Positions 24,817 through 39,645 of a DNA stretch of 53,849 nt are shown in pieces (the first letter of the stretch is position 1; each line of letters begins with the position of its first letter). The position numbers and the translations under genes were made by a program. The stretch comes from an uncultured delta proteobacterium (lineage in GTDB: Bacteria; Myxococcota_A; Polyangia; Haliangiales; Haliangiaceae), in assembly GCA_900696455.1 (NCBI GenBank), contig CAADGB010000285.1, positions 1-53,849 of the forward strand. The letters are read 5' to 3'. The notes below the pieces were generated by a model. The model made no database searches, had not been told where the DNA came from, and saw only the letters and a list, made by a program, of their open reading frames with translations.

Positions 24817-24947
24817 CCCCCCGGGATGACCGCCTGGCCACGACAACGTGACGACCGGGCGTGCGGCGCCGACGCCGCGCCCCCTGACAGATTCTCACCA
24901 CCCCCCCGGCCTCGCAGGTCTGCGATGGACACGCGCCCCGGGAAGGC

Positions 24948-24953
24948 TAGTAT
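24948..24953 (+). promoter_or_regulatory. -10 box TAGTAT before the DsbA-like gene
   Basis: TAGTAT ends 7 nt before ATG 24961 with no Shine-Dalgarno sequence. It makes the in-frame ATG at 24925, which lies upstream of the element, an unlikely start. Confidence 0.6.
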
Positions 24954-24960
24954 CCGCGCC

Positions 24961-25842
24961 ATGATTCGTTCCCTCGCACTCGTTTTCGGCGTGGCCGCCG
25001 CGCTCGCCGGCTGCCAGCAGGACAAGCAGAACCCCAACTGGGGCGACAACGGCCCCCGGCCCGTGGGCGCCAGCGCGGCGACGTCGAACGCGCCCGCCGG
25101 CAGCGTCGAGGATCGCCTCGCGCGCGTCGAGCGCCGGCTCGACAAGATCACCGGCTTCCTCAAGCAGGCGGTCCCGCCCAAGATCGACGAGAACGCGGTC
25201 TACGGCATCCCGCTCGACCCGGCGGACCCGGTGCGCGGCCCGGCCGACGCCAAGGTGACGATCGTCGAGGCCTACGAGTTCCTGTGCCCGTACTGCGCGA
25301 TGGTGGCGCCCACGGTCGATCAGCTCCTCGCCGAGTACCCCAAGGACGTCCGGGTGGCATCCAAGTACTTCCTCATCCACGGCGAGCCGGCGATGGCGTC
25401 GGGGCAGGCGGCGTGCGCCGCCGCCAAGCAGGGCAAGTACCAGGACTTCGAGTCGACGCTGTGGAAGAAGGCGTGGCCGGCGCCCGGCCAGCCGTCGGTC
25501 AAGGAGCACCTCACCGCCGAGGGCACCGCGGCCATCGCCGCCGAGCTCGGGCTCGACATGAAGCGCTACCAGGCCGACGTCGACGGCGACTGCAAGGAGT
25601 GGCTGAGCCGCAGCATGCGGACGCTGCAGCAGTTTGGCGCCGGCGGCACCCCCACCTTCTACGTCAACGGCCGCGTCACCCAGGCCGGCAACCTGGCCGG
25701 GTTCAAGCGCGTCATCGACGAGGAGATCAAGAAGGCCGACGAGGCCATCAAGGGCGGCGTGAAGCAGGCCGAGTACTACGAGAAGGTCATCGTCGGTAAG
25801 GGCGAGAAAGAGGCCCGCATGGTCTCGCCCTTCGACGACTGA
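24961..25842 (+). CDS. DsbA-like thiol:disulfide oxidoreductase lipoprotein
   Basis: 293 residues. Signal peptide with lipobox LAGC (Cys18), then a flexible linker and a short coiled coil (DRLARVERRLDKITGFL). The thioredoxin-like domain begins about residue 90: EFLCPYCAM with Cys109 and Cys112, FLIHGEPAMASG, and cis-Pro loop GGTPTFYVNG. It belongs to the DSBA/thioredoxin_4 group. Both active-site cysteines are present, so it can form disulfides in exported proteins. It lies at the edge of the Cys-rich lipoprotein region and, unlike the triple-domain protein at 34359-36245, has a full CxxC. A strong hairpin follows the gene. Confidence 0.88.
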   Translation: MIRSLALVFGVAAALAGCQQDKQNPNWGDNGPRPVGASAATSNAPAGSVEDRLARVERRLDKITGFLKQAVPPKIDENAVYGIPLDPADPVRGPADAKVTIVEAYEFLCPYCAMVAPTVDQLLAEYPKDVRVASKYFLIHGEPAMASGQAACAAAKQGKYQDFESTLWKKAWPAPGQPSVKEHLTAEGTAAIAAELGLDMKRYQADVDGDCKEWLSRSMRTLQQFGAGGTPTFYVNGRVTQAGNLAGFKRVIDEEIKKADEAIKGGVKQAEYYEKVIVGKGEKEARMVSPFDD

Positions 25843-25956: not shown

Positions 25957-26709
25957 ATGGCTTGCACCGTTCGTACCTCGCTCGCCTCCACGTTCATCGC
26001 CCTCGCCGCCGCGCTCGCGCTCGGCGCCTGCGGCGGTGACGACACCGTCACCGTCACCGACGCCGCCGTCGACGCCGAGATCGACGCGCCGATCGACGCG
26101 CCGCCGCTGACCTGTAACCCACCGACCATGAACTGCGGCGGCATGTGCGTGAACACGACCAACGACGAGCAGTTCTGCGGCAACTGCACCACGCAGTGCG
26201 CGGGCGGTGAGATCTGCACCAACAGCACATGCAACTGCCCGACCGTCACCCTGCCGACGAACGCGTCGGGAGGCTTCGCCATCGAGATCTCGGGCTTCAT
26301 GCTCGGCACCAACGCCCTCACCGGCAACGCGCTGATCATCGCGCTCGATCCCGCGACGGTCGTGGTGGATCAAGACTACGTGCTCACCGAGGGCACGCTG
26401 GGCACGCTGCCCACCGCTGGGTTCGGCGTCGACGTCGACCTGCTCGGCATGACCGCAGGGGCGACGTTCGCTGCGACTGAAGGCACGCTTCGCATCACGC
26501 AGGTCTGCCCCGATGACACGGGCACCCAGCTTCCCGAAGGTGGGATCGCGGGCACGCTGACCGGCGTGAAGTTCTCTGCGGTGGACGGCTTGCTCCAAGG
26601 CAACCCCGTGCTCGTGCCCGATGGGTGCACGCTGCCGCCAGACGGTGCCACTCCCGAGACGGTCGATATCACCTTCTCACTCGGAAACGTGAGCTGCAGC
26701 AACATGTAG
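25957..26709 (+). CDS. lipoprotein with Cys-rich CGGxC motif domain
   Basis: 250 residues. Lipobox LGAC, an Asp/Ala linker (DAAVDAEIDAPIDAP), then a small Cys-rich module (CNPPTMNCGGMCVN...CGNCTTQC...GEICTNSTCNC) of a type very common in myxobacterial surface lipoproteins. The remainder (about 110-250) is a beta-rich domain of unknown function. Unlike most genes to its left it has a perfect Shine-Dalgarno GGAGG 4 nt before the ATG and a TAGTGT about 100 nt upstream. Codon third positions are less GC-rich than in neighbours (TCA, GGA, GCA, GCT occur). Confidence 0.8.
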   Translation: MACTVRTSLASTFIALAAALALGACGGDDTVTVTDAAVDAEIDAPIDAPPLTCNPPTMNCGGMCVNTTNDEQFCGNCTTQCAGGEICTNSTCNCPTVTLPTNASGGFAIEISGFMLGTNALTGNALIIALDPATVVVDQDYVLTEGTLGTLPTAGFGVDVDLLGMTAGATFAATEGTLRITQVCPDDTGTQLPEGGIAGTLTGVKFSAVDGLLQGNPVLVPDGCTLPPDGATPETVDITFSLGNVSCSNM

Positions 26710-26712
26710 CGG

Positions 26713-28101
26713 TCACGGCGAGCGCGGCGCGAGCACGAGCGAGCTGCTCGAGAGCCTCATCGTGCCCGCCGGGATGATCGGCGTTCCGGTTCGTGTCCGG
26801 ACGTGGCAGCGCCCGGCCGCCCCTCCTCCGCCGCCGAGCGCTCCGGTCGAGCCGATGCCGTTCGTCGGCGGAGAGGTCTCGGTGCCGCCGGTCCCGCCCG
26901 TCCCGCACCCCGAGCAGGTGCCGCCTGCGGCGCCGGCAGTTCCCGTGACGGTTCCTTCGGCTCCGGCGGCGCCTCCGGACGGTCCTCCGGCCCCGCCGCC
27001 CCCACCACGTCCGGCCACGACCGCGCCCGGGCCAAAGAACACCACCGGCGCCTGGAGCAGCACGTTGCCGCCGGATCCGCCTCCGAGCGCGACGTTGGTG
27101 AGCCCGGCGCCCCCCCCGCCACTGACGTCGATCTGCGCGGTCGACGCGAGCGCGATTCGCGTGCGGCTGGCGAGTTGAATGCCGCCGCCGCCGCCCACCT
27201 GACCGCTGCCGGCACAACCGCCGGCCAGCGCGGGTGGCCCCGCGGGGTGAAGTCCGCCTCCCGTGAGGCCGTTACTCGAGCGCCCGCCGTTGGACATGTT
27301 CCCGGCGCCTCCGGAGACGAACGACATCCACTGGCCCACGCATGACGCCGAGTCGCCGAGGCTACCGGGTCCCGCCCCCTGCTCCGCCACGCCGGGCTGA
27401 CCAGAGCCGTCGAGGACTCCCTCGATACGAACGTCGAAGTGCGAGGCGATGGCGAGCGCACGGGCGCCATCGAGACGCAGCGTGCTCCCCGCGCGGAGCG
27501 TGAAGGTCCTGGTCTTCAGCACGAGCACCGCCGGCGCCGGTGGGCTCTGGGTGAGGACCTCGGCCGGGATGCGGATCGTACCCCCGCCCGTGTCGGTGAT
27601 GCGCACCTCCGCGGCGACGCTGTCGAACTGACCGTTCGGACCGGTATCGAGCGCGATGGTTCCATCGGGACTGCCGGCGAGGGGCAAGACGACGTCCGTG
27701 CCGGTGGCGGACACCCCGTTGTCCAGCGCCGCGTTCACGACATTGAGCGTGTCGATGTCCGCGCAGCGCGGCGCCGTGGTGTGGCAGCCCATCGGGCACT
27801 CGTAGTCGTCCATGGTGATCGTGATCGGCTCGCCGCTGGCGCCGCCGTTGGGGATGAGGTGCTGGACGAAGTTGCCGGTCGCGTCGCAACGCGTGTAGCG
27901 TCCGTCGGCGCAGGACTCCGCCTCCGGAACGCACACCGTGGCCGCGTCGGGATCGCCGCCGTCGCCCGGCGCCCCGTCGCCGGCGCTGCCATCGCCCGGC
28001 GCGCCGTCCTCGTCGATCGGCGGGAGCTCCGGGAACTTGCAGGCCCCCACTCCCAGCACCAGCCCCACGACGACCGTGATCCTCGAGGTCAACCGCATCA
28101 T
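26713..28101 (-). CDS. Gly-rich surface lipoprotein of unknown function
   Basis: 462 residues from ATG 28101, with lipobox GVGAC. An Asp/Gly linker (GAPGDGSAGDGAPGDGGDPDAA) is followed by a Cys-containing region (CVPEAESCADGRYTRCDATGNFVQ) and by a beta-helix-like middle: GGTIRIPAEVL, AGSTLRLDGARALAIASHFDVRIEGVLDGSG. The C-terminal third is extremely Gly-rich (SGGGGAGLTNVALGGGSGG), a composition seen in surface or adhesin-like proteins. Codon use is less GC-biased than in the window average. TACCGT 8 nt upstream suggests a leaderless start. It converges on the 25957 lipoprotein with 3 bp between stops. No catalytic motif is visible. Confidence 0.78.
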   Translation of the reverse strand: MMRLTSRITVVVGLVLGVGACKFPELPPIDEDGAPGDGSAGDGAPGDGGDPDAATVCVPEAESCADGRYTRCDATGNFVQHLIPNGGASGEPITITMDDYECPMGCHTTAPRCADIDTLNVVNAALDNGVSATGTDVVLPLAGSPDGTIALDTGPNGQFDSVAAEVRITDTGGGTIRIPAEVLTQSPPAPAVLVLKTRTFTLRAGSTLRLDGARALAIASHFDVRIEGVLDGSGQPGVAEQGAGPGSLGDSASCVGQWMSFVSGGAGNMSNGGRSSNGLTGGGLHPAGPPALAGGCAGSGQVGGGGGIQLASRTRIALASTAQIDVSGGGGAGLTNVALGGGSGGNVLLQAPVVFFGPGAVVAGRGGGGGAGGPSGGAAGAEGTVTGTAGAAGGTCSGCGTGGTGGTETSPPTNGIGSTGALGGGGGAAGRCHVRTRTGTPIIPAGTMRLSSSSLVLAPRSP

Positions 28102-28302: not shown

Positions 28303-29130
28303 TCAATACGCGGTCGGCGCGGGGCTCGCCGGCGCGAACGGCGTGGCCGTGGGGGTGGGCGGAGCCGGCGTCGCGGCAGGTGTGGCCGTCGGGGTGGGCG
28401 TCGCGGTCGGCGCGGGGGTCGCCGATGGTGCCGTGGGCGCGGGCGTGGGCGTGGGCGGGATCGGCTCGCAGCCGTCCGCGCCGAGGCGGAGGCCCTCGCA
28501 GCACGCGCCGCCGCCCGGTCCAGGGCGTTCGCCCTCACCCGCGCAGCAGCCCCAGCCGGTGTCCTCGCAGCAGTGGCCCTCGGGGCGGCGCGGCGCCGGC
28601 GTCAGGTCGATCCCGCGGCGCCCACACTCGCACGGATCGGTGATGAGCTCGGGCGGCCGCCGCGTGCGGTCGTAGCAGGCCTGCTCCTCGCCGCAGGTGT
28701 CGTCGTCGGGAGCGGCGGGGTCGCCGCAGCACGCGCTCGGACCGCAGTCGCGACCGCCGAAGGTCTCGCAGCGCAGGATGCAGCCGGTGACCGCCCGATG
28801 GCAGGCGAGGCACGCCTGCGGACAGTCGCCTCGCTCGACCGCCTCCGCGGTGCAGCTCCGGACGTCGCCGAACCCGAACGGGCAGTGCTGGTCGATGCAG
28901 TCGTCGTGAACGTCGCAGCAGCGCCCCCGAGCCCCGCAGCTCCCGCCGATGACGTCACAGCCGGCCTGGTTGTAGGTCTCCACCATCACCGCGTGCTCGC
29001 CGGCCGCGAGCGACCCCGGCTCGCCGGCGATCGTGGGTGGACGCGCGGGGTCGTCCAGCTCGAGACATGCGGCGAGCGCCAGGGCGGCGCTCAGCGCCGC
29101 GCACAGGAGGAGCGAGTGCTTGCTGGTCAT
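28303..29130 (-). CDS. Cys-rich lipoprotein with phospholipase-A2-type HD motif and Pro/Thr tail
   Basis: 275 residues; lipobox ALAAC (Cys22). The mature region carries 26 more cysteines (residues 58-221), mostly in pairs. CCDVHDDC (71-78, His75/Asp76) matches the phospholipase A2 histidine active-site pattern C-C-x-x-H-D-x-C. The Ca-binding Gly loop of animal PLA2 is not obvious; GGSCGARGR just before is a weak candidate. Residues 225-275 are a Pro/Thr/Ala tail (PTPTPAPTAPSATPAP and on). A GGAGAGG Shine-Dalgarno site lies 5 nt before the ATG. It is the last gene of the lipoprotein run. It is likely a disulfide-bonded surface protein; lipase activity is a hypothesis only. Confidence 0.8.
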   Translation of the reverse strand: MTSKHSLLLCAALSAALALAACLELDDPARPPTIAGEPGSLAAGEHAVMVETYNQAGCDVIGGSCGARGRCCDVHDDCIDQHCPFGFGDVRSCTAEAVERGDCPQACLACHRAVTGCILRCETFGGRDCGPSACCGDPAAPDDDTCGEEQACYDRTRRPPELITDPCECGRRGIDLTPAPRRPEGHCCEDTGWGCCAGEGERPGPGGGACCEGLRLGADGCEPIPPTPTPAPTAPSATPAPTATPTPTATPAATPAPPTPTATPFAPASPAPTAY

Positions 29131-29224
29131 GCTCGCCTCTCCATCACACGCCGTGCCATCGCTCGAGGCGCGCCACGCACCTGGGACGTCGAGGCCGACC
29201 GGGACGCTCGCTGCGGGGCCCAAC

Positions 29225-29254
29225 CCTCGATGCAGGCAGGGGCCTGCATCGAGG
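29225..29254 (-). terminator. 13-bp perfect hairpin downstream of the 30191 gene
   Basis: Arms 29225-29237 and 29242-29254 pair perfectly around a 4-nt loop. It lies about 70 nt after the stop of the gene ending at 29322 and before the next gene. No T-run follows, so it is a structured 3' end or terminator. Confidence 0.6.
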
Positions 29255-29321
29255 CCGGGGACCTGGCTCCCGCGAGCGCTCTGCCTGCGCGGCCCGCGAG
29301 GCGCGCGACCGCGGCGCCGGC

Positions 29322-30191
29322 TCAGCTCGGCGTCGGCGTCGGCCCCGGCGTGGCGGTCGGCGTCGGCCCCGGCGTGGCCGTCGGCGTCGGCCCCGGCGTG
29401 GCCGTCGGCGTCGGCCCCGGCGTGGCCGTCGGTGCTGGCGTCGCGGTCGGCGTCGGCGCCGGCGTGGCCGTCGGGGTCGGCGTCGGCGTGCAGACCGGCT
29501 CCGGGTTGCACGCAGGATCGGTCGCGACCGCGTACGCGCAATCCTCGTCGCAGACCTCCGCGCCGCTGCCCGAGCCGCTGCCGCCCGTCACGGCGTACGT
29601 GTCGCACGGCATGCACGCGCACCCGACCTTCTTGCCCGGCTCGGAGCACGCGGCCTTCTTGCGACACTCGTTGACGCTGGCGTTGCTCGGCGGCCCCACC
29701 GCGCACATCTCGCGTGCGGTCGCCGCGCCGTCGCCGTCCGGCCACTTCGGCTTGCCGTCGGGCCCCTTGGGGAGTCGATCGCACGACACGCTGATCGCCG
29801 CGGTCACGAAGCACATGTCGGCCTTGGCGGCCTGGCCCGGCAGGAGGCCCGCCTCGCCGCACTTGACGAAGCGCTGGTTGAGGCACTTGTCGTAGTCGGC
29901 GTCCGGGACGTTGAGCCGGTTGCACTTGTCGCAGGTCCCGATCTTGTCGCCGAACCCCAGGCAGATCGGCTGACCGTTCACCCAGCCACCGTCCTTGTCC
30001 CACGGCTTCCCGGGGGATGGACCGGCGCAGCTCGCCGCGGTGGGCGTGAACGCCGGGCACCCCGCGTACGGGTCACCCAGGTCCTTGCAGTCGTCCTTGT
30101 TGATGAACTGGTCGGTGACGTCGTAGCCGGCCGGCTCACCGACGCAAGCCGCGACCAGGACGATGACCGAGATGAAGCATGACGTGCGCAT
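29322..30191 (-). CDS. Cys-rich lipoprotein with repeated Pro/Thr/Ala tail
   Basis: 289 residues; lipobox VAAC (Cys16). Twenty further cysteines (35-234) lie in a charged, Lys/Asp-rich domain with no family I recognise (DKIGTCDKCNRLN, KKVGCACMPCDTYA). A short Gly/Ser stretch precedes the last Cys group. Residues 235-289 are TPTPTATPAPTP-type repeats, four of them identical octapeptide units. A strong AGGAGG Shine-Dalgarno site ends 7 nt before the ATG. An even cysteine count plus the export signal suggest a fully disulfide-bonded extracellular domain on a mucin-like stalk, inverted relative to the usual order because the tail is C-terminal. Confidence 0.8.
   Translation of the reverse strand: MRTSCFISVIVLVAACVGEPAGYDVTDQFINKDDCKDLGDPYAGCPAFTPTAASCAGPSPGKPWDKDGGWVNGQPICLGFGDKIGTCDKCNRLNVPDADYDKCLNQRFVKCGEAGLLPGQAAKADMCFVTAAISVSCDRLPKGPDGKPKWPDGDGAATAREMCAVGPPSNASVNECRKKAACSEPGKKVGCACMPCDTYAVTGGSGSGSGAEVCDEDCAYAVATDPACNPEPVCTPTPTPTATPAPTPTATPAPTATPGPTPTATPGPTPTATPGPTPTATPGPTPTPS
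29333..29430 (-). repeat. four 24-bp coding repeats in the Pro/Thr tail
   Basis: Near-identical 24-bp units encode TATPGPTP-type octapeptides in the C-terminal tail of the overlapping gene. Read on the plus strand they give GVGPGVAV, which is not a gene. Confidence 0.75.
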
Positions 30192-30198
30192 CGCTGAA

Positions 30199-30204
30199 CC
30201 TCCT
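30199..30204 (-). promoter_or_regulatory. Shine-Dalgarno AGGAGG deciding start 30191
   Basis: A consensus AGGAGG lies 7 nt before the ATG on the minus strand. Similar strong sites precede genes starting at 29130, 31089, 31552 and 34095. Confidence 0.65.
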
Positions 30205-30249
30205 GCAGGTGTGTGATCCGCTCCCGGCCCGCCCGTGGGTCCGGAATGC

Positions 30250-30278
30250 AGGCGCCCGGCCACACCGGCCAGGCGCCT
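30250..30278 (-). terminator. hairpin after the 31089 gene
   Basis: Twelve-base arms with one mismatch (AGGCGCC-c-GGCC / GGCC-a-GGCGCCT) around loop ACACC, 17 nt after the stop at 30295. It separates that gene from the next. Confidence 0.6.
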
Positions 30279-30294
30279 TCGCTCCTCCCGCGCG

Positions 30295-31089
30295 TCACAT
30301 CCCCGGCGTCGCCGACGGGGTCGTCGTCGCGACCGGCGTCGACGACGCGGTGGCGGTCGGCGCCGGGGTCGGCGCCGCCTTGCGGCAGTTGCACGAGTAT
30401 CCGAAGTCGGTGCCTCCGTTCGGGTTGGTGACGATGCCGCACCCGCAGCTATCGACCCCGTGCGGCTCGCAGTTGTTCTTGCACATGTAGTTGCAGCCGA
30501 GGGTGATGCACGCCAGGTACGCGGCCAGCCCGATGACCGCGATGACGATGATCGTCGTCGAGATCGGCTCGACGTTCGCCCCACCGCTCTGGGTCGTCGC
30601 GAGCGTCGCCAGCGTCGACAGCGCGAAGAGCCCGGCCTCGCGATCGTAGGCGCGCACGCCCTCGAACCGAACGCTGAGCGTGGACAGGCCCGAGCCCGCG
30701 AACACCAGCGTCGCTGCCGCCGGGCTCCAGCGCAGCGAGATCGGCAGCAGGTCGCCGTCCAGGCGCACCGCGATGGAGCCGTCGGCCTGCGGCGCGAACG
30801 CCAGGCCGCGGCCGTTCGTGGTCCGGAAGGCCGTCGCGCTGGCGAAGATCCGCTCCGGTGCGGCAGGGGCTCCCCCCTCGAGGATCGCCAGGCTGGGCTC
30901 GACCTCGAGCTCGAAGTCGAGATCGGCGACGGTCTCCTCACCTGCCGAGTCGGTGAGGACGACCCGGGTGCGCACGCCGTCGGACTCGCCGCGCGGTCCC
31001 GCGTCGTGGCAGCCGGTCACCGCCGGGATGAAGCACGCGAGGGTCACGAGCGAGATCAACGAGGATCCCAGGGAGTGTCTGCTGAACAT
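30295..31089 (-). CDS. lipoprotein with internal membrane segment, Cys-rich end and Pro/Thr tail
   Basis: 264 residues; lipobox VTGC (Cys27). Residues about 30-160 form a beta-rich region (RTRVVLTDSAGEETVADLDFELEVEP; GSIAVRLDGDLLPISLRWSP). Then a hydrophobic stretch TTIIVIAVIGLAAYLACIT, a short Cys-rich segment (CNYMCKNNCEP...CGCG...CNC), and a tail ending SATPGM. A membrane segment after a lipid anchor is odd: the C-terminus may cross back or the stretch may be buried. AAAGGAG lies 6 nt before the ATG. It shares the TPGM end with the protein encoded at 32429-33199. Confidence 0.75.
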   Translation of the reverse strand: MFSRHSLGSSLISLVTLACFIPAVTGCHDAGPRGESDGVRTRVVLTDSAGEETVADLDFELEVEPSLAILEGGAPAAPERIFASATAFRTTNGRGLAFAPQADGSIAVRLDGDLLPISLRWSPAAATLVFAGSGLSTLSVRFEGVRAYDREAGLFALSTLATLATTQSGGANVEPISTTIIVIAVIGLAAYLACITLGCNYMCKNNCEPHGVDSCGCGIVTNPNGGTDFGYSCNCRKAAPTPAPTATASSTPVATTTPSATPGM

Positions 31090-31129
31090 GTCCGTCTCCT
31101 TTGCTGAACGTTGTTGTCACTCGAGCTAC

Positions 31130-31552
31130 TCAAGATCGTTCGGGCGCGCCACACGACGGGCCCGCGACCCACAGTCGACAGGCCTGGATCTGCTGCATCG
31201 TCACGGCGCCGGCGGCGCAGCCCAGCGCCAGCGCGAAGTCATCGTCGCGCCGCCGGGCCTCACACCGCGCCGCCAGGCGATCGGCGCTGAACCGGTCGTC
31301 CAGGCTCGCCATCCACGCCGTCCGGTCCGGCGCGGGCAGTCGGGAGGCGAGCGTCTCGAAGTGCCGCACGATCACCGCCGCGCCGCGCGCGGCGACCCGG
31401 ACGCAGTCGACCTCCGGATCGCCGTCGAGCACGAGCGCCGGCGGCGTCTCCACCCGCCCGCCCCGTGAGGCCGGCCGCACCTCGTCGCGGTCACAGGCCA
31501 TGACCGTCGCGGCGAGCACGCATGGCAGCAGCACCCAGGCATATCGCTTCAT
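31130..31552 (-). CDS. small lipoprotein without Pro/Thr tail
   Basis: 140 residues; lipobox VMAC (Cys20), five more cysteines. The mature part is helical and charged (VDCVRVAARGAAVIVRHFETLASRL; RLAARCEARRRDDDFALALGC), not like the neighbours. No motif is recognised. GAGGAG lies 6 nt before ATG 31552. The frame is open 40 codons upstream, but that part is Arg-rich and overlaps a hairpin, so the shorter start is preferred. It is followed by the gene starting at 31089 after 40 bp, possibly in one transcript. Confidence 0.7.
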   Translation of the reverse strand: MKRYAWVLLPCVLAATVMACDRDEVRPASRGGRVETPPALVLDGDPEVDCVRVAARGAAVIVRHFETLASRLPAPDRTAWMASLDDRFSADRLAARCEARRRDDDFALALGCAAGAVTMQQIQACRLWVAGPSCGAPERS

Positions 31553-31612
31553 CTGGCTCTCCTCGCCGGGACAGGGCGCCCTGGGGGCGCGATCTCGTGA
31601 CGGCTCGCGGTC

Positions 31613-31655
31613 GCGCGCGTCCCGCTCCCGGTCCCGGGTGGGTGGGGACGCGCGC
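31613..31655 (-). terminator. 11-bp hairpin after the 32421 gene
   Basis: GCGCGCGTCCC and GGGACGCGCGC pair perfectly (31613-31623 with 31645-31655), with a smaller hairpin-forming loop. It lies about 14 nt after the stop at 31669. Confidence 0.6.
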
Positions 31656-31668
31656 CGTCGCCGCTTGG

Positions 31669-32421
31669 TCACAGCACGGCGGTGGCCGTCGGCGTCGGCC
31701 AGGCCGTCGCGGTCGGCGTCGGCCAGGCGGTCGCGGTCGGCGTCGGCGGCGGGGGCGTCGGCGAGGACGTCGCCGACGGGGTCGCGGTCGCCGAAGGGGT
31801 CGCTGGCGGCGTCGCCGGCGGCCCCTGACAGCCGCTCGCCGTCGCCTGCCGGTACGCGGTGACGGTCAGGTCACGGACGCACTGCTTGTTGATGCGCTCG
31901 CTGAACACCGTCCCGCCCAGGAACGTCACTCTCCCCTCGCCCGACGCGATCATGATCGCGACGGCCTTCACGGAGCCGGCCTTGAAGATGTAGTCGCCAC
32001 CTGCCGCGGTCGGCACCGGCGTGCGCGCCGTGAGCGCACACTCCTGCGCCGTGGACCAGTAGAGCGCGTACTCGGCCGAGACCGTGAGGGTGCCCTCGAC
32101 CTTCCACCCCAGTGTGGCCCCGGTAGCGCCGCTGATCGTGAACCGAACCGCGCCCTTGTCGCACGACCGGTTGTCGCGCGCGACCGCCTCGTGCGTGAAG
32201 CAACCGAACGGGGTCCCGCTCACGACGGCGCACGCCGCGCGTGCCCCTTCGGTCGCCTCGCATGCCGACAGCGCCATCGCCTTCACGGCCGCGGTGTTCG
32301 CCGGTCTGGGCTCGCACGCCCAGTCGAGCAGCGTCAGGTAGTCCGCGCCCCGGGCGTCCCCTGCCCCGACCAACCCGACACACGCGAACGACAGCGCGAT
32401 CATGCCTCCGATCGGACGCAT
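31669..32421 (-). CDS. secreted protein with eight Cys and Pro/Thr tail, paralogue 1
   Basis: 250 residues. Signal peptide 1-25 (ending GDARG-A), no lipobox Cys. The mature domain has eight cysteines: WAC, SAC, AAC, SGTPFGC, RSC, QEC, KQC, SGC. The same order and the SGTP(F/W)xC block occur in the next protein upstream, so the pair are tandem paralogues. The last 50 residues are a PATPSATATPSATS-type tail with WPTPTATA units. A GAGG lies 6 nt before the ATG. It starts 7 nt after the stop of its paralogue, so both are in one operon. No enzyme motif is seen. Confidence 0.78.
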   Translation of the reverse strand: MRPIGGMIALSFACVGLVGAGDARGADYLTLLDWACEPRPANTAAVKAMALSACEATEGARAACAVVSGTPFGCFTHEAVARDNRSCDKGAVRFTISGATGATLGWKVEGTLTVSAEYALYWSTAQECALTARTPVPTAAGGDYIFKAGSVKAVAIMIASGEGRVTFLGGTVFSERINKQCVRDLTVTAYRQATASGCQGPPATPPATPSATATPSATSSPTPPPPTPTATAWPTPTATAWPTPTATAVL

Positions 32422-32428
32422 CGGCGCC

Positions 32429-33199
32429 TCACATCCCCGGCGTCTGGACCGGCGTCGGCGTGGCCGAGGGCGAGCTCGGGGGCGGTGAGGCGGTCGGCGC
32501 CGGCGTCGGCGACCCCGGCGGCGGCGTCGGCGTCGTGGTCGGCGTCGTGGTCGGGGTCGCGGTGGGCGTCGTGGTCGCGGTCGGCGCCGGCGTGGGCATG
32601 CCGCACGAGTTGACCTCGGCCTTCTTGAAGTACTGCGTGCTCGTGGTTCGCTCGCACCCCGCCGCCGCGCTGAGGTTCACCGTGATGCCGACCGGGCTCG
32701 TCACCTCGAGGCTGCCCTCGATCTTCATCTCCACCATGAAGGAGATGTCACCTGACTCCGCCGAGTAGGCCCCGCCGCTGGCGATCGGCGTGGGGATCAC
32801 CGGCGCGACGTTGCAGATGTTGATGTTGTTCTTGATCGCCAGGCGGTGGTACTTGGCCTTGGCCTCCCCCTTCACCTTCCAGGTCCCCGGCATCGCGAAC
32901 CCCGCGCCGATCTGGAACTCGATCTTCAGCTCGTCGCACGCCTCCCCCTTCTCCTTCGGCTTGGCGCTCGGCGTCGAGCACGTCCACGGCGTGCCGGAGA
33001 GCACCGAGCAGGCGGCCTTGATCCCCTTCTCGACCCCACACGCGGCCATCGAGTCGGTCTGGATCTTGGCGTCGATGGTGGCGTCGCCGCCCACGCAGTA
33101 GGCGAGCCACTCCCCGAACGTCGCGGCCTCGGCGCGCGGGCTCCCGGCGAGGGCGGTCACGACCGCGATGCCGACGATTGCGATTCCGTGCTTGTACAT
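32429..33199 (-). CDS. secreted protein with eight Cys and Pro/Thr tail, paralogue 2
   Basis: 256 residues. Signal peptide to SPRAEA; mature start ATFGEWLAYC. Eight cysteines in the same spacing class as the downstream paralogue (AYC, AAC, AAC, SGTPWTC, EAC, NIC, AGC, NSC). A beta-rich middle (ISFMVEMKIEGSLEVTSPVGITVNLSAAAGC) precedes the tail PTPAPTATTTPTATP that ends QTPGM. GAAGGAA lies about 9 nt before the ATG. It follows the gene at 33226 by 26 bp. No known family. An intramolecular four-disulfide fold is inferred from the even, conserved count. Confidence 0.78.
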   Translation of the reverse strand: MYKHGIAIVGIAVVTALAGSPRAEAATFGEWLAYCVGGDATIDAKIQTDSMAACGVEKGIKAACSVLSGTPWTCSTPSAKPKEKGEACDELKIEFQIGAGFAMPGTWKVKGEAKAKYHRLAIKNNINICNVAPVIPTPIASGGAYSAESGDISFMVEMKIEGSLEVTSPVGITVNLSAAAGCERTTSTQYFKKAEVNSCGMPTPAPTATTTPTATPTTTPTTTPTPPPGSPTPAPTASPPPSSPSATPTPVQTPGM

Positions 33200-33225
33200 G
33201 TTCGTCGTTCCTTCCGGGTGTGGGG

Positions 33226-34095
33226 TTACCTGACGAGGCAGGCGCTGAACTCGGGGACGTCCGCGACCAGGATCTCGTGCAAGCCGGCGAGCTCGCGGCC
33301 GACCAGATCCATCCGCGTCGCGCACACGACGAACGCCGCGTGCGGCCGCTGGCGCGCGCGACCGAGATCGATGAAGGGATCGCGCTCGGCCCCCTCGACC
33401 TCGTTCAGCCTGGCGAAGCGCAGGACCTGCCAGCCGTGGCCCGGGATCTTCACGAGGTCGACGACGTGGAGGTAGGCGGTCCCCAGGTCGGCCACCCCCA
33501 GGCTCCCGTCGTCGTCGACGTAGTGCAGCCGGTTGTTCGCCCGACCCTCGACGCGCACGAAGACCTTGTCGCCGAGCGGGACGACCGCGGAGGGCGCGTG
33601 CTTCATCTGCTGCCAGAGCACCAGGCGATCCTGGTCGGCCTCGGCGAGGACGTAGTCGAGATCGGGTGGCGGCGACTCGTACTCGACATCGAGCACGAGC
33701 GAGGTGTCGGCCTCGGGCAGCAGCTCGAAGAGATCGACCGCGCCGGCCGGAAGGTCGGGACGGATCGTGGGCACCCCATCCGACAGCGTGACGGCGCGGC
33801 GAGAGGACTTCTCGCGCAGACCGGCCTCGACCTCGATGTCGGACCGCAGGCCCTTCCGCCCCTTGAACGCGAGCGTCACATCGGCCTCGGTCGTGCGCGA
33901 CGGCTGCGCGTCCGCCTTCTGCTTGCCCCAGGTCGCGTACTCGGTGACCGTCGGGACCGCGGGAAAGACCTGGTCTCCCACGGCGAGCCCCGCGGACGCG
34001 GACACCTCGTCGCGGGACGTGGAGTCCTCGTGCGCGCACCCGCTCATCGCGAGCAACGAGCCGAGGACGACAGCATGCTTGCAGGTTCTGATCAT
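33226..34095 (-). CDS. lipoprotein of unknown function in the Cys-rich cluster
   Basis: 289 residues; lipobox MSGC (Cys20). Unlike its neighbours it has few other cysteines and no Pro/Thr tail. Long beta-rich stretches: DVTLAFKGRKGLRSDIEVEAGL, LDVEYESPPPDLDYVLAEADQDRLVL, VFVRVEGRANNRLHYVDDDGSL. The C-terminus ends FSACLVR. No catalytic motif. AAGGAGGA lies 5 nt before the ATG, the best ribosome site in the window. It starts a likely operon with the two eight-Cys paralogues. A terminator hairpin lies upstream at 34305-34332. Confidence 0.75.
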   Translation of the reverse strand: MIRTCKHAVVLGSLLAMSGCAHEDSTSRDEVSASAGLAVGDQVFPAVPTVTEYATWGKQKADAQPSRTTEADVTLAFKGRKGLRSDIEVEAGLREKSSRRAVTLSDGVPTIRPDLPAGAVDLFELLPEADTSLVLDVEYESPPPDLDYVLAEADQDRLVLWQQMKHAPSAVVPLGDKVFVRVEGRANNRLHYVDDDGSLGVADLGTAYLHVVDLVKIPGHGWQVLRFARLNEVEGAERDPFIDLGRARQRPHAAFVVCATRMDLVGRELAGLHEILVADVPEFSACLVR

Positions 34096-34304
34096 CGTGC
34101 TCCTCCTTGCGACCGTCGCACTGCAAGGCCGATGCCCGCGCTCCTGCCGCCGCGGCGCGCGCCTCCGATGCGCGAGGCGGCGATCGTGCAGGCGCGAGCC
34201 CTCGCGTGCAGGCCAGCGTCCGCAGCGGAGCTCGGCGGCGCATCGACGATCGCCGGAGGCGCGGGCATCCCGAGCACCCACATCGCGGCCGCGCCGAAAC
34301 GACC

Positions 34305-34332
34305 GACGCGGGGCACCGGCGTGCCCCGCGTC
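34305..34332 (-). terminator. 12-bp perfect hairpin after the triple-thioredoxin gene
   Basis: GACGCGGGGCAC / GTGCCCCGCGTC around loop CGGC, 26 nt after the stop at 34359. It closes the two-gene unit 37066-34359. Confidence 0.65.
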
Positions 34333-34358
34333 GAGGACTGCCATGGCGACGGCGCGCG

Positions 34359-36245
34359 CTACCGCGCCGCGCCCTCGACCAGCTCGTCGAGCAGCTCGTC
34401 GGCGATGAGCCCGGGCACGACGTGACCGGCGATGACGAACGTGGGCGTGCCGGTGAACCCGCGCGCCTGACCGTCGGCCTCGGCGGCGGCGATGGGCAGA
34501 TCGGTCACGTCCGGATCGTCGAAGTCGCGCGCGAAGCGGACCGGATCGAGGCCGAGCGCCGGCAGCGCCGCCTCGATCGCGCGACGGTCGAGCGACGCCT
34601 GGTTGGCGAACAGCCAGTCGTGCATCTCCCAGAAGCGGCCTTGCCGCTGGGCGGCCAGCGCCGCCGCCGCCGCGTTGCGAGCGTGGTCGTGCATCGCGAG
34701 CGGCAGGTGCTTGAACACCGTGCGCACGCGGTCGCCATGGCGACCCCGGAGCCGCTCGAGCGCGCGCGCCGCGTCGGCGCTGTGACCGCACTCGAAGTCC
34801 AGGAAGGCGACCACCGTGACGGGGGCGTCGACCGGCCCCCGGGTCGGATCGTCGGCGCCCACCGTCACCGGCGCGCTCTCGGCGAGGGCCAGGTGTGGGG
34901 CCGCCGGCGTGGGTGGCGCCGCGTCGGTCCGGGCGTCGGCGAGGACTCGGTCGTAGACCGAGCCCGGCCCGTCCGGCGTCGCGCGAGCGACCTCCAGCTC
35001 CTCGGCGACGAGCTCGGCGAGATGGGCCGGAGGGATCACGCCCACCACCGGGCGCCCGTTGATGAAGGTGGTCGGCGTCCCACGGACGCCGAAGCGCGCC
35101 GCCAGGTGCCGATGCGCGCGCACCTCCTCGACCACCGCGGGGGCGGAGGCGAGCGCCTCGACGCGCGCGGGATCGAGACCGACCGCACGTAGCGCGCCGA
35201 TCAGCTCGGCGTGGCGACGCAAGCCGCGGCCACCGATCAGCCGCGCGAACAGCGCCTCGCCGTGGCCGAGGCGCGCGGCCGCCGCGAGCGCGAGGTGGGC
35301 GTCGACGGCGAACCGATGCCGCGGCAACGGATCGTGCTTGATCACCAGCCGCAGCTCGGTCCCGAAGCGCGTCCGGACCCGATCGAGCGCGCGCCACATC
35401 CGGCGGGTGTGCGGGCACTCGACGTCGGCGAACAGCACGGCGGTCACCGGCGCCGCGACCGGGCCGAAGGCGAGATCCCCTTCGCCGACCGGGATGGCGT
35501 AGCGGAGCTCGGGATCGAGGGTCTCCGCCGGCGCGGGCGCGTCGGCCAGCGGCGCCGCGCCCGCCATGATGTGCGCGTGGATCCTGGACGGCGCGACGCC
35601 GCGCGCGGTCAGCTCGGCGACGTACCCGCGCTCGGCCTCGACGATCGCCGCCAGACGGCCATCGTCGAGCTTGCCCTTGAAGCCGACCCCGTTCACGAAC
35701 CACCACGGCGTCACGTCCACACCCAGCGCACGCGCGACGGCGACATCCCGCCGCACGTGCGCCGCGACGTCGGGATCGTCGAGATCGCGCTCGAAGCGCG
35801 CCGGCGCCAGGCCGAGCACCCCCGCCAGGGCGACCACGGAGGCGCGGTCGTGGTGGTCCGTCGAGAACAGCGCGCGCGCCATGGGCAGGAAGCGCCCCTG
35901 GCGGTGGGCGGCGAGCGCGGCGCGCGCGGCGGTGGCGGCGTGGAGGTTCCCCGGGAGCGGCAGGAACCGCACGGCCAGTCCGACATCGCCCGGCGCGTCG
36001 CCCACCGCGACGGCGCGCTCGAACGCCTCCCGCGAATGGGGGCAGGTGAAGTCGACGAACAGCGTCGCCTCGATCGGGGCCGCCGCCGCCCCGAGCCGCG
36101 GCGCTCGGTCGTCGCGGGGCACCTGCCGGCGCGGGCTGGCCGGATCGCCGTCGACAGGCGGCGCCCCCGGCGTCGCCTCCAGGCAGCCGGTCGCGATCAG
36201 GGCGATGGCCATCACCCACGCGGCCCGAGCGCGGCGCCGGATCAC
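34359..36245 (-). CDS. lipoprotein with three monothiol thioredoxin-like (DsbA/DsbG-type) domains
   Basis: 628 residues; start GTG 36245 overlaps the preceding stop (GTGA). Lipobox IATGC (Cys21). Three tandem thioredoxin-like domains: D1 about 55-230 (FVDFTCPHS, Cys68; cis-Pro VTPWWFVNG), D2 about 245-425 (FADVECPHT, Cys277; GTPTTFINGRPVVG) and D3 about 455-625 (FLDFECGHS, Cys486; GTPTFVIAGHVVPG). Each has lost the second active-site Cys, so the protein has exactly four cysteines: the lipid anchor and one per domain. Single-Cys sites cannot catalyse net oxidation alone but can shuffle disulfides or hold mixed disulfides. Its coupling to a 22-Cys lipoprotein gene suggests a folding helper for it. 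Confidence 0.85.
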   Translation of the reverse strand: MIRRRARAAWVMAIALIATGCLEATPGAPPVDGDPASPRRQVPRDDRAPRLGAAAAPIEATLFVDFTCPHSREAFERAVAVGDAPGDVGLAVRFLPLPGNLHAATAARAALAAHRQGRFLPMARALFSTDHHDRASVVALAGVLGLAPARFERDLDDPDVAAHVRRDVAVARALGVDVTPWWFVNGVGFKGKLDDGRLAAIVEAERGYVAELTARGVAPSRIHAHIMAGAAPLADAPAPAETLDPELRYAIPVGEGDLAFGPVAAPVTAVLFADVECPHTRRMWRALDRVRTRFGTELRLVIKHDPLPRHRFAVDAHLALAAAARLGHGEALFARLIGGRGLRRHAELIGALRAVGLDPARVEALASAPAVVEEVRAHRHLAARFGVRGTPTTFINGRPVVGVIPPAHLAELVAEELEVARATPDGPGSVYDRVLADARTDAAPPTPAAPHLALAESAPVTVGADDPTRGPVDAPVTVVAFLDFECGHSADAARALERLRGRHGDRVRTVFKHLPLAMHDHARNAAAAALAAQRQGRFWEMHDWLFANQASLDRRAIEAALPALGLDPVRFARDFDDPDVTDLPIAAAEADGQARGFTGTPTFVIAGHVVPGLIADELLDELVEGAAR

Positions 36246-37066
36246 TGGCCACCTTCCTCGGGCTCGCTCCACGACGCCGGCGCCGCTGCGGTCGGCGCCG
36301 GCGCGGGGGTCGCCGACGCGGTCGCGGTCGGCGAGGGGGTCGGCCACGGGCTCGCGGTCGGCCAGGGAGTCGGAGTGGCCGACGCGGTCGCCGTCGGAGA
36401 CGGCGGCGGCGGCGTGCTCGACGCGGTCGGAGTCGGGGTCGGCGTCGAGCACTTCTCGGCGGCCTTCGTACACTCCTTGACCTTCGTCGTACCCGGACAG
36501 ACCAGCGCCGGACACTTGCCGTTGCCGGGCTTGCCGCAGCCCTCGTACTTGGTGTTCGCGTCCGGGAGCGATGCGTTGCACGTCACCTTGCAGTTGCAGA
36601 TGCGGTAGGGCTCGCTCGGCGACAGGCCGAGGGTCCCGGCGGGATCGCTCAGCTTCTCGCAGCCGTTGCCGCTCGTCGTCACCCAGCACAGCCCGCCCGC
36701 CTTGTTCGGGCATTCGGTGTCGTTGAGCGTGCTGCAGTCCTTGTCGCACGACCCGTACTTGTACGTGTGGTAGGTGCCCTGCCCGCCGGTAGGCTTCGTG
36801 TTGTCGCAGCAGCACTTGCAGTAGCCCGTGTCGCACCACTGGCCCTGCGGACAGGCCTTCCCGTCGCAGCTCCCCTTCTGATCCTTGCCTCCCTTGCACG
36901 AGCTGCAGTCGCCCGCGTAGGCGTACTGCTCGTCGACAGACAGACCCTCCCACGGATCCTCGTCACTCAGACATCCGGTGAACGCGAGGGTGAGGGCGGC
37001 GAGGGCGAGGAGCGGCGCGACGCGCCGGACGCGGCGGCGCAGCGCAGCGAGCAGGTGGTTCATCAT
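36242..37066 (-). CDS. 22-Cys lipoprotein with Pro/Thr/Ser tail, coupled to the triple thioredoxin
   Basis: 274 residues; lipobox AFTGC (Cys32) after an Arg-rich n-region. Residues 54-206 have 22 cysteines, including a CKCCCD cluster (83-87), in a Lys/Gly-rich domain (CKGGKDQKGSCDGKACPQG). The remainder, 207-274, is a tail of PTPTASSTPPPPSPTATA with WPTASPWPTP units and an acidic end EEGGQ. It is the first gene of a two-gene unit with the thioredoxin triple (4-bp overlap). The start region has ATG ATG (37066 or 37063) without a clear Shine-Dalgarno site. It is divergent from the glycosyltransferase operon. Family unknown. Confidence 0.78.
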   Translation of the reverse strand: MMNHLLAALRRRVRRVAPLLALAALTLAFTGCLSDEDPWEGLSVDEQYAYAGDCSSCKGGKDQKGSCDGKACPQGQWCDTGYCKCCCDNTKPTGGQGTYHTYKYGSCDKDCSTLNDTECPNKAGGLCWVTTSGNGCEKLSDPAGTLGLSPSEPYRICNCKVTCNASLPDANTKYEGCGKPGNGKCPALVCPGTTKVKECTKAAEKCSTPTPTPTASSTPPPPSPTATASATPTPWPTASPWPTPSPTATASATPAPAPTAAAPASWSEPEEGGQ

Positions 37067-37177: not shown

Positions 37178-38761
37178 ATGGCCGAACGCCCCTTCGACCG
37201 TCGCGCGATCCGCTGGCTCGCCGTGCTCGCCCTCGTCGCGCTGGCCGCCGCCCTGCGGCTCAGCGCGCTCGAGCTGCGGCCGCCGCACCACGACGAGGGC
37301 GTCAACGGCTGGTTCGTCGAGAAGCTCCGGCGCGACGGTCACTACGCCTACGACCCGGGCAACTACCATGGCCCGTCGTACTTCTACCTGCTGACCGCGT
37401 CGCGCGAGGCCTTCGGCTTCGGGCTGTGGCAGCTCCGCCTGCCCGGGGCGGTGATCGGCGTCGCGCTGTGTCTCACGCCGCTGCTCCTGCGCCGGCGCAT
37501 GGGCTGGGGGCCGGCGCTGGCGGCCGGGGCGCTCCTGGCGACCTCACCGACCCTCGTCTACTACGCGCGCTACGCGATCCACGAGACGCTGCTGGTCGGG
37601 CTCGGACTGCTGGTCGCAGCCTGCATGCTGCGGTGGGCAGACCGCGGCGGCGGGGGCTGGCTGATCGGCGGCGCCGCCGCGCTCGCCGGCATGATCGCGA
37701 CCAAGGAGACGACCATCCTCTTCCTCGCGGTGAGCGGCGCGTGGCTGCTCGGCGAGATCGTGGTCGAGTCGTGGCGCGCGCGCCGCTTCACCGTCCTCGG
37801 CCGCGCCGGCGCGTGGTCGTGGCGCGCGTCGGCGGTCGCGCTGGCCATGGTCGGCGTGATGGCGGCGATCCACGTCGCCCTGTTCACCGGGTTCCTCCAG
37901 CAGCCGGGCGCGCTGGGCGACCAGCTCGCGCGCTCGTTCGAGGCCTACTTCCTGTGGCAGGAGACCGGTACCGGCCACTCCGGCCACGAGAAGGACGGGT
38001 GCTACTACCTGCACCTCGGCGCCCGCTACGAGCTGGTGCTCTACGCCCTGGCCGCGGTCGGGCTGGTCGCCGGGTTCCGTCAGCGGTGGGTGCGCGGCCC
38101 CGGCCTCGTCGGGTTCGGACTGTGCGCCGCCTACTCCTGCGTCGCCTACAAGATGCCGTGGCTGCCCATGAGCTGGCTGGTCTTGCTGGCCCTGCCGGCG
38201 GCGCACGGGCTCTCGCTGCTGGTTCGCGTCATGCGCGACGAGGTCGCCGCGCGCTGCGGCCTCGGGCACGCGGTCGCCCTCGCGCTGGTGCCGGCGCTCG
38301 TCATCACCGCCCGCTCCTCGTTCCTGCGCCCGGCCGACGAGCGCGAGCACCTCGCCTACGTCCACACCCACCCCGACTACTGGAGCTGGTTCGGGCTGAT
38401 CGAGGCCGGCGCGACCCGGGTCGGCCGCCAGCGCCTGGTGGTCGCGGTCGAGCACGACGCGACCTGGCCGTTGCCGTGGTCGCTGCACCCGTACCCGCGC
38501 ACGCGGTGGAGCGCCAGCGGCGACGAGGACGTGATCCTCGCGGCGAGCAGCCGGGTCGCCGCGGTCGAGGAGCGGCTGCGTCGCGACTACCTGTGGCGCG
38601 AGGTCCGGGTGCGCGGCAGCGCGGAGCCGGCGCGCCTCTACCTCCGGCGCGGACTCTACGCCCGCGTCCTCGGCGACCGCGTCGCCCGCGACCGCTACAC
38701 CCTCGTCCCGGCGCGCGCGGCTGGCGTGCAGCTCGCCGCCGGCGCCGCCGCGTCGCGCTGA
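37178..38761 (+). CDS. GT39/Agl23-like membrane glycosyltransferase
   Basis: 527 residues, starting MAERPFDRRAIRW. About 10-12 membrane segments. After TM1 the loop PPHHDEGVNGWFVEKL has an acidic pair, Asp39/Glu40, where GT-C enzymes keep their catalytic Asp; DPGNYHGPSYFYLL follows. These features match the Agl23-like (TIGR03663) branch of GT39-type protein O-mannosyltransferase relatives, which use polyprenyl-phosphate sugars. The C-terminal part is soluble-like. The gene is divergent from the mucin-tail lipoprotein genes by 111 bp, which makes it a candidate enzyme for glycosylating their Thr/Ser-rich tails. A role in lipid-linked sugar or O-antigen handling is the alternative. Confidence 0.78.
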   Translation: MAERPFDRRAIRWLAVLALVALAAALRLSALELRPPHHDEGVNGWFVEKLRRDGHYAYDPGNYHGPSYFYLLTASREAFGFGLWQLRLPGAVIGVALCLTPLLLRRRMGWGPALAAGALLATSPTLVYYARYAIHETLLVGLGLLVAACMLRWADRGGGGWLIGGAAALAGMIATKETTILFLAVSGAWLLGEIVVESWRARRFTVLGRAGAWSWRASAVALAMVGVMAAIHVALFTGFLQQPGALGDQLARSFEAYFLWQETGTGHSGHEKDGCYYLHLGARYELVLYALAAVGLVAGFRQRWVRGPGLVGFGLCAAYSCVAYKMPWLPMSWLVLLALPAAHGLSLLVRVMRDEVAARCGLGHAVALALVPALVITARSSFLRPADEREHLAYVHTHPDYWSWFGLIEAGATRVGRQRLVVAVEHDATWPLPWSLHPYPRTRWSASGDEDVILAASSRVAAVEERLRRDYLWREVRVRGSAEPARLYLRRGLYARVLGDRVARDRYTLVPARAAGVQLAAGAAASR

Positions 38762-38865: not shown

Positions 38866-39645
38866 ATGATGATCACCGACGCCCAGCGCCCGTCCCTGTC
38901 GATCGTGATCCCCGCCTACAACGAGGCCGCTCGCATCGGCCCCACGCTCGCCCGCGTCACCGCCTTCCTCGATGCTCGCGCGGAGCGCTACGAGGTGATC
39001 GTCGTCGACGACGGCTCCCGCGACGCCACCCGTGACGTCGTGACCGCGGTCGCGCGCGAGCGGCCGCGGGTGCGGCTCTTGCCGCTGCCGGCCAACGCCG
39101 GCAAGGGCGCCGCCGTGCGCGCCGGGGTCCTGGCCAGCCGCGGTCGGGACGTGCTGTTCTCCGACGCCGACCTGTCGACGCCGATCGAGGAGCTCGAGCG
39201 CCTCGAGGCCGCGCTCCGCGCCGGCGCCGACGTGGCGATCGGATCGCGGGCCGTCCCCGGCGACGTCCATCGCGAGCAGCCGCTTCTGCGGCGCCTGCAG
39301 GGCCGCGGCTTCCACCTGGTCGTCCGCGCCCTCGGCTTCCGCGCGGTCGCCGCGATCCGCGACACCCAGTGCGGCTTCAAGCTGTTCCGTGGCCCGGTCG
39401 CCCGTGCCCTCTTCGGCGAGCTCACGCTCGCCGGCTTCGCCTTCGATGTCGAGCTGCTCGAGCTCGCTCACGACCGCTTCCGGATCGCCGAGGTGCCGGT
39501 GGCGTGGACCCACGCCGACGGCTCCAAGGTGCGGCCCGGCGTCGACGCGCTGCGGATGCTGCGCGACCTGACCCGGATCCGCTGGGGGTGGCTGCGCCGC
39601 GGCCGGCCCGTGCTCGGCCTGCCGGCCGGCGAGCAGGTGCGCTGA
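38866..39645 (+). CDS. GT2 dolichyl-/polyprenyl-phosphate glycosyltransferase, ALG5-like
   Basis: 259 residues. GT2 fold: SIVIPAYNEAARI, VVDDGSRDAT, and the nucleotide/metal motif DADLSTP (with Asp-x-Asp), then TQCGFKLFRG and AFDVELLELA. DADLSTP together with the TQCGFK block is typical of the ALG5/dolichol-phosphate glucosyltransferase branch. It probably transfers a sugar from a nucleotide donor to undecaprenyl phosphate at the membrane surface, giving the substrate for the neighbouring GT39-like enzyme. A C-terminal amphipathic Arg-rich end is present, without a clear TM. GGAG lies 7 nt before the ATG. The next gene starts 1 nt after its stop. Confidence 0.85.
   Translation: MMITDAQRPSLSIVIPAYNEAARIGPTLARVTAFLDARAERYEVIVVDDGSRDATRDVVTAVARERPRVRLLPLPANAGKGAAVRAGVLASRGRDVLFSDADLSTPIEELERLEAALRAGADVAIGSRAVPGDVHREQPLLRRLQGRGFHLVVRALGFRAVAAIRDTQCGFKLFRGPVARALFGELTLAGFAFDVELLELAHDRFRIAEVPVAWTHADGSKVRPGVDALRMLRDLTRIRWGWLRRGRPVLGLPAGEQVR

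Follow-up and report, generated by a model that had tools for sequence, protein, structure and literature searches.

With C. bescii, the TPTPTATATP linkers of the cellulase CelA are probably where a GT39 enzyme, one encoded near celA, attaches its sugars, and deletion of the gene for that enzyme abolishes glycosylation and leaves CelA subject to far greater cleavage (PMC6151902, PMC12757957). Similarly, a protein of Cellulomonas fimi that possesses a Pro/Thr (P/T) linker can carry up to 32 mannoses. Multi-component systems, i.e., as consisting of GT-A, GtrA, and GT-C proteins, represent in addition a known extracytoplasmic route (PMC8035078). Considered here is a locus found on a contig from an uncultured delta proteobacterium (CAADGB010000285.1; its 53,849 nucleotides are referred to in their entirety as the window). 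This locus consists of an array of nine minus-strand genes (28303-37066), all with exported products as judged from their translations, along with a divergently transcribed cassette of putative glycosylation genes, GTC1, GT2, GTC2, and GtrA, which begins 111 bp from the first gene of the array, g1. Six of the nine array proteins were originally predicted to join a Cys-containing exported domain to a Pro/Thr/Ala tail, and the translations bear this out. With an extracytoplasmic glycosylation cassette lying beside them, these tails are suggested to be glycosylated and, by analogy with the above linkers, most likely serve as O-glycosylated stalks.

Relative to the GT39 systems, i.e., C. bescii Cbes_1864 acting on CelA or the PMT of C. 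fimi, the P/T/A repeats are near-identical in composition, TPTPTATATP there versus TPTPTATP here, and in both cases a membrane GT-C gene is found close to presumed acceptors. The locus differs from those systems in that GTC1 is of the TIGR03663/PMT_2 rather than PF02366 type, in that two GT-C enzymes are present plus GtrA, and in that the tracts are C-terminal tails on Cys-rich lipoproteins rather than cellulase linkers. Relative instead to GtrABC-type systems, which decorate lipoteichoic acid, wall teichoic acid, or O-antigen, what is shared is a GT2, a GtrA, and a GT-C gene reading in the same direction. The presumed acceptors here, however, are exported proteins, and the GtrA frame runs on into a lipoprotein-like domain. 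Tentatively favored, at somewhat short of an even chance, is a reading of the locus as a glycoprotein island of recent acquisition, one in which P/T tails would be O-glycosylated stalks and a monothiol DsbA would aid disulfide shuffling.

The six tails, which range from 26 (g7) to 68 (g1) residues in length, are all C-terminal, but with g1 terminating in WSEPEEGGQ, and they are nearly uncharged and possess no Lys, Arg, or Asp. The accompanying domains possess, outside of lipobox and signal peptide, 22 (g1), 8 (g4), 8 (g5), 8 (g7), 20 (g8), and 26 (g9) cysteines, with one extra Cys found within the signal peptide of each of g5, g7, g8, and g9. The claim of even Cys counts thus holds, yet as evidence it is weak, since six even counts should occur by chance with a likelihood of about 1/64. 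The domains were also described as differing strongly from one another, and this is so for five independent domains rather than six, as g4 and g5 are clearly paralogous (31% identity, with a Z of 23 against shuffles); these are the sole homologous pair among tailed domains. The gaps between genes of the array are short, i.e., -4 to 263 bp, which suggests one or few transcription units.

Tails such as these could in principle be neutral, low-complexity extensions, ones arising through GC-rich repeat expansion, and indeed the g8 tail doubles as a 24-bp DNA tandem repeat, with 6- to 24-bp repeats found in other tails. This appears to be quite improbable given that in all six genes it is the P/T frame which is read directly before the stop, and given that synonymous codons are mixed (CCG/CCC/CCA/CCT for Pro and ACG/ACC/ACT/ACA for Thr). 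In addition, just one of 789 genes sampled elsewhere in this same GC-rich genome has a C-terminal P/T tract, versus six of nine in the array, and that one belongs to a protein of another type. Sampling (80 stretches, 0.92 Mb, genes called by codon-position composition) was added because pattern matching at the DNA level was of limited sensitivity: over the whole genome, a looser P/T pattern recovers three of the six array tails, while a strict pattern recovers only that of g8. Around the other matches to the looser pattern no called gene has a C-terminal P/T tail, and only a handful of genes have P/T tracts. There is thus a strong local enrichment of P/T tails at the array (Fisher p about 2e-12), a post hoc figure as the hypothesis was drawn from the same data and as g4 and g5 are paralogs.

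Occupation of the same C-terminal position on otherwise unrelated exported proteins of one locus might also be viewed as indicating a sorting signal comparable to MYXO-CTERM, and targeting indeed was one of the roles originally proposed for the tail. Inspection of the tails nevertheless reveals nothing resembling a hydrophobic helix, the tails are devoid both of Arg/Lys clusters and of any end motif held in common, and the MYXO-CTERM models of NCBIfam go unmatched by the proteins that were scanned (g1, g4, g5, g8, g9). Lipoboxes, furthermore, are already present on most of these proteins, and an equivalent tract is found mid-protein in the lipoprotein at the cassette's edge. Targeting therefore goes unsupported, with a sorting role seeming very improbable.

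GTC1 scores 197.5 bits against TIGR03663 (cut-off 126.25), which is the Agl23 family, and E 5.7e-10 against PF13231, i.e., PMT_2, with STT3 matched weakly. Eight hydrophobic segments are detected, and the motifs HHDEG (aa 37-41) and HGP, as kept from Agl23/TIGR03663, include an acidic, putatively catalytic DE situated in the first outside loop of this multi-membrane-span protein. Those motifs are present in 20 of 20 relatives, DE included, with the conservation of DE being in part a matter of selection since HDEGVNGW served as the search pattern for those relatives. GT2 also matches PpgS and PgfS in NCBIfam, below cut-off. Found within four consecutive genes are thus three components, PF00535, PF04138, and TIGR03663, for which a role involving a lipid carrier is predicted. 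To our knowledge, no acceptors of bacterial TIGR03663-type GT-C enzymes are known, and a literature search on TIGR03663/TIGR03662 found no paper.

Just one in 290 genomes of the class scores over the TIGR03663 cut-off, and no GTC1 relative at E<=1e-10 is found in the genomes of 32 other relatives. GTC1 relatives (26-46% identity) instead are found in Acidobacteria, Desulfobacterota, Melainabacteria, Elusimicrobia, and others, where a GTC2 relative lies beside the GTC1 relative in 16 of 20 loci and a GT2 does so in 4 of 20. As GTC1 is rare in the class and its relatives reside in other lineages, the cassette has the appearance of a module for extracytoplasmic glycosylation that is transferable and that would be newly arrived in this lineage.

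The frame containing GtrA continues, following the GtrA domain, into a lipoprotein-like segment, a 36-residue Pro/Thr/Ser (P/T/S) linker (42118-42225), and a Cys-rich CRTHDACYD domain, and may in fact represent two separate genes that share a reading frame. Its ortholog in a sister species, here designated G005, is a stand-alone lipoprotein with a domain that is 70% identical, with a GSGSGSG-type linker, and with no cassette adjoining. More distant relatives of this edge lipoprotein possess no P/T tract of such a kind. In this one comparison the P/T tract hence accompanies the cassette, as the ortholog that lacks the cassette has a GSGSGSG linker instead, and this difference, while one event, is the best single argument joining tails and cassette. 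Together, the divergent GT-C/GT2/GT-C/GtrA cassette and this P/T/S tract, missing from the sister ortholog, support what had been proposed originally, that is, that the tail is a spacing or glycosylation module. A more elaborate possibility is that of a horizontally acquired, self-contained island, its Agl23-type GT-C/GtrA cassette accompanied by a dedicated triple monothiol DsbA and by Cys-rich, P/T-tailed acceptors of its own that are otherwise unknown, the arrival of which would have converted a resident lipoprotein to an acceptor via replacement of a Gly/Ser linker with a P/T/S one. This we consider to be rather doubtful.

From a different perspective, the tails might be unmodified, flexible spacers which raise Cys-rich heads through an outer surface layer, with the cassette decorating lipopolysaccharide or another polysaccharide and having been merely co-acquired in a variable slot. 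GT-C/GtrA/GT2 systems are in fact known mainly for polymer decoration (PMC8035078), the relatives of GTC1 and GTC2 elsewhere are without P/T-tailed neighbors, and the slot does vary between sister species. P/T tails or tracts nevertheless cluster on both sides of the cassette, it is precisely the P/T/S tract that sets the edge lipoprotein apart from its ortholog, and substrates of glycosylation typically are uncharged, Thr-rich stretches. Unmodified spacers thus come across as somewhat unlikely, albeit deserving of serious consideration.

Under the favored glycoprotein-island reading, GT2 would load a hexose onto polyprenyl phosphate, GtrA would flip the loaded carrier, and GTC1/GTC2 would then move the sugar to Thr or Ser residues of the P/T tails following Sec export. 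So glycosylated, the tails would be stiff, protease-resistant stalks that keep disulfide-stabilized heads off the membrane. Oxidation of those Cys-rich heads would fall to a DsbA lipoprotein with a CPYC active site, a candidate oxidant for Cys-rich proteins, and g2 would act as a mixed-disulfide isomerase or holdase, not as an oxidase.

This division of labor reflects the conserved CPYC DsbA adjoining the array, i.e., oxidation is assigned to that protein and shuffling or holding presumably is left to g2. Described originally as a triple thioredoxin, g2 is actually a triple DsbA (PF01323, E 1.7e-46, in three stretches) in which all three resolving cysteines have been lost. Its active sites read CPHS (aa 68), CPHT (aa 277), and CGHS (aa 486), with cis-Pro motifs retained, as TP, at aa 179-180, 390-391, and 600-601. 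The DsbA fold is thus present three times over but CxxC is not, versus CxxC in 58 of 59 aligned sites of the best-scoring g2 relatives. Put differently, g2 is like the tandem DsbA proteins of the class (CPFC/CGYC/CPYC) in its repeated domains and kept cis-Pro, but unlike them in that every resolving Cys is now Ser or Thr. With CxxS, a thioredoxin-fold protein remains able to enter into mixed disulfides but is unable to serve as a simple dithiol oxidase. Monothiol mechanisms are treated elsewhere (PMC2757866). In the orthologous DsbA neighborhood of a sister species, G003, a different Cys-rich exported protein (L120:12118-12648; 21 Cys, with CNVHGCW repeats) adjoins the conserved CPYC/CPYC-type DsbA lipoprotein.

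Several considerations weigh against the island interpretation. Chief among these is that no P/T-tailed protein is found near relatives of GTC1 plus GTC2 (20 loci, from Acidobacteria, Desulfobacterota, and others), meaning that no general link joins the GTC1/GTC2 pair to substrates of this kind. GTC1, in addition, gives no match to the GT39 PMT model PF02366 of Pfam, for which reason it may be said to work like a GT39 PMT rather than to be one. The linker change has been observed just once, between two orthologs, of which the G005 copy lies near a contig end, and every genome compared is a draft. Lastly, g7 possesses a hydrophobic segment (aa 180-198) directly N-terminal of its Cys cluster. 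Should this segment span the inner membrane then the g7 tail would stay unexported, and so lie across the membrane from where the glycosylation model requires it; the segment is left unexplained by that model.

Table 1. Genes of the tailed array, of the divergent cassette, and of the adjoining DsbA lipoprotein (coordinates are those of the window).
Feature	Coordinates	Strand	Description
g1	36242..37066	-	Lipoprotein, 22-Cys domain plus P/T/A/S tail (36242-36448); no family match
g2	34359..36245	-	Lipoprotein without tail, three DsbA domains; 4-bp overlap with g1
g3	33226..34095	-	Lipoprotein without tail, matching no known family
g4	32429..33199	-	Exported, 8-Cys domain plus P/T tail (32429-32596); g5 paralog
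g5	31669..32421	-	Exported, 8-Cys domain plus P/T tail (31669-31821); g4 paralog
g6	31130..31552	-	Small lipoprotein without tail
g7	30295..31089	-	Lipoprotein, hydrophobic segment, 8-Cys cluster, short P/T tail (30295-30375)
g8	29322..30191	-	Lipoprotein, 20-Cys domain plus TPTPTATP-type tail (29322-29489)
g9	28303..29130	-	Lipoprotein, 26-Cys domain with CCDVHDDC plus P/T tail (28303-28458)
GTC1	37178..38761	+	Integral-membrane GT-C glycosyltransferase, TIGR03663/Agl23 family, PMT_2
DPM/GtrB-like GT2	38866..39645	+	Candidate polyprenyl-phosphate sugar synthase; PF00535 E 2.2e-29
GTC2	39647..41554	+	Second GT-C/membrane protein, about 12 hydrophobic segments; no named family match
GtrA-lipoprotein frame	41551..42690	+	GtrA flippase domain aa 17-131, PF04138 E 2e-12
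DsbA lipoprotein, CPYC	24826..25842	+	PF13462/PF01323; conserved in the genus, with orthologs in G002, G003, G005, G006

Of the genomes compared this one alone possesses the array, which occupies a slot of variable content, as two sister species, G002 and G005, carry other material between kept flanks. Kept to one side are a sulfatase, the DsbA, a Stig1-like lipoprotein, and the lipoprotein at 26713-28101, and to the other side the gene at 52373-53392. Array and cassette were found neither between nor near these flanks in G002 or G005, the 8-9 kb between flanks there consisting of other sequence. With G005 (L118:5128-13385) this is about 8 kb of lower GC (0.63-0.69) with hardly any called gene, and its kinase/FHA block plus edge lipoprotein are located on a separate contig. 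Contamination or misbinning of the contig is ruled out, the left flank being syntenic with genus members at 73-87% nucleotide identity. The Stig1-like protein (25957-26709; PF04885 over cut-off) is a Cys-rich lipoprotein that is found genus-wide beside the DsbA lipoprotein. A further lipoprotein (45783-47465), with GWDGNRG repeats near its N-terminus and a GSGSGS tail, is kept in G005.

As for the heads, the statement that no named family displays this layout stands: Pfam, NCBIfam, PADLOC, and PHROGs give low-complexity or sub-threshold matches only. A class-wide search, as proposed along with the original prediction, likewise yielded, from 110-290 genomes of genus and class, nothing that could convincingly be called a homologue of the g1, g4, g7, g8, or g9 domains. 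Here g4 and g8 were searched singly, and g1, g7, and g9 within a shorter chimeric query which recovered them in their own genome; with a first chimeric query g1 and g5 went unrecovered even there. Chimeric queries are less sensitive, with only 4-5 candidates scored per genome, and g5 was reached only as the g4 paralog, hence was partly tested. Viral contigs hold no relatives of g4/g5 or g8, and a plasmid collection holds none of g4. Predicted structures are too poor for interpretation, with pLDDT of 44 for g4/g5 and of 47 for g9 (AF2); Foldseek with g9 returned nothing below E 1.

The CCDVHDDC of g9 resembles the CCxxHDxC active-site motif of secreted phospholipase A2, as does CCVTHDACYD, which is seen among relatives of the edge lipoprotein. 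This is a hint, from motifs, that g9 and the edge lipoprotein may be secreted phospholipase-A2-like domains. Beyond that likeness of motif there is neither a Pfam nor a PDB profile match, nor a confident model: g9 has no Pfam match, the g9 and edge-lipoprotein domains versus PDB sequences gave nothing useful, and g9 versus the edge-lipoprotein family gave an hhalign P of 0.04 and a probability of 1%. Exported Cys-rich domains of the form CRGACG...C..HDxCYDxC (L087, L088, L089, L090, L092, L095, L111) appear to constitute an unnamed family with a phospholipase-A2-like motif and no Pfam match.

Such heads allow the locus to be viewed instead as cargo, that is, as secreted effectors or toxins (e.g., phospholipase-A2-like) in a hypervariable slot, with tails as shared delivery or anchoring modules. 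Consistent with this, C..HD.C motifs are found in both g9 and the edge lipoprotein, the tested tailed domains are without relatives in the class, and the G002 slot holds a kinase plus a 1102-aa Hint-domain, toxin-like protein (L115:7700-11008). No immunity-like pairs or secretion-system markers were seen at the locus, however, there was no PADLOC or toxin-family match, and most array members possess lipoprotein signals, so that a toxin role for the array is improbable. The 1102-aa protein itself displays a Hint/intein-like CFVAGTKVW...YHVSSLGLLVHN region, which is typical of polymorphic toxins.

Protein O-glycosylation has been little described in this bacterial class. If the tails are acceptors, then this locus pairs an enzyme with its substrates, and the sister ortholog, with its non-P/T linker, would serve as a natural control. 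The triple DsbA, as it is minus all of its resolving cysteines, would similarly offer a ready test of monothiol Dsb handling of Cys-rich clients.

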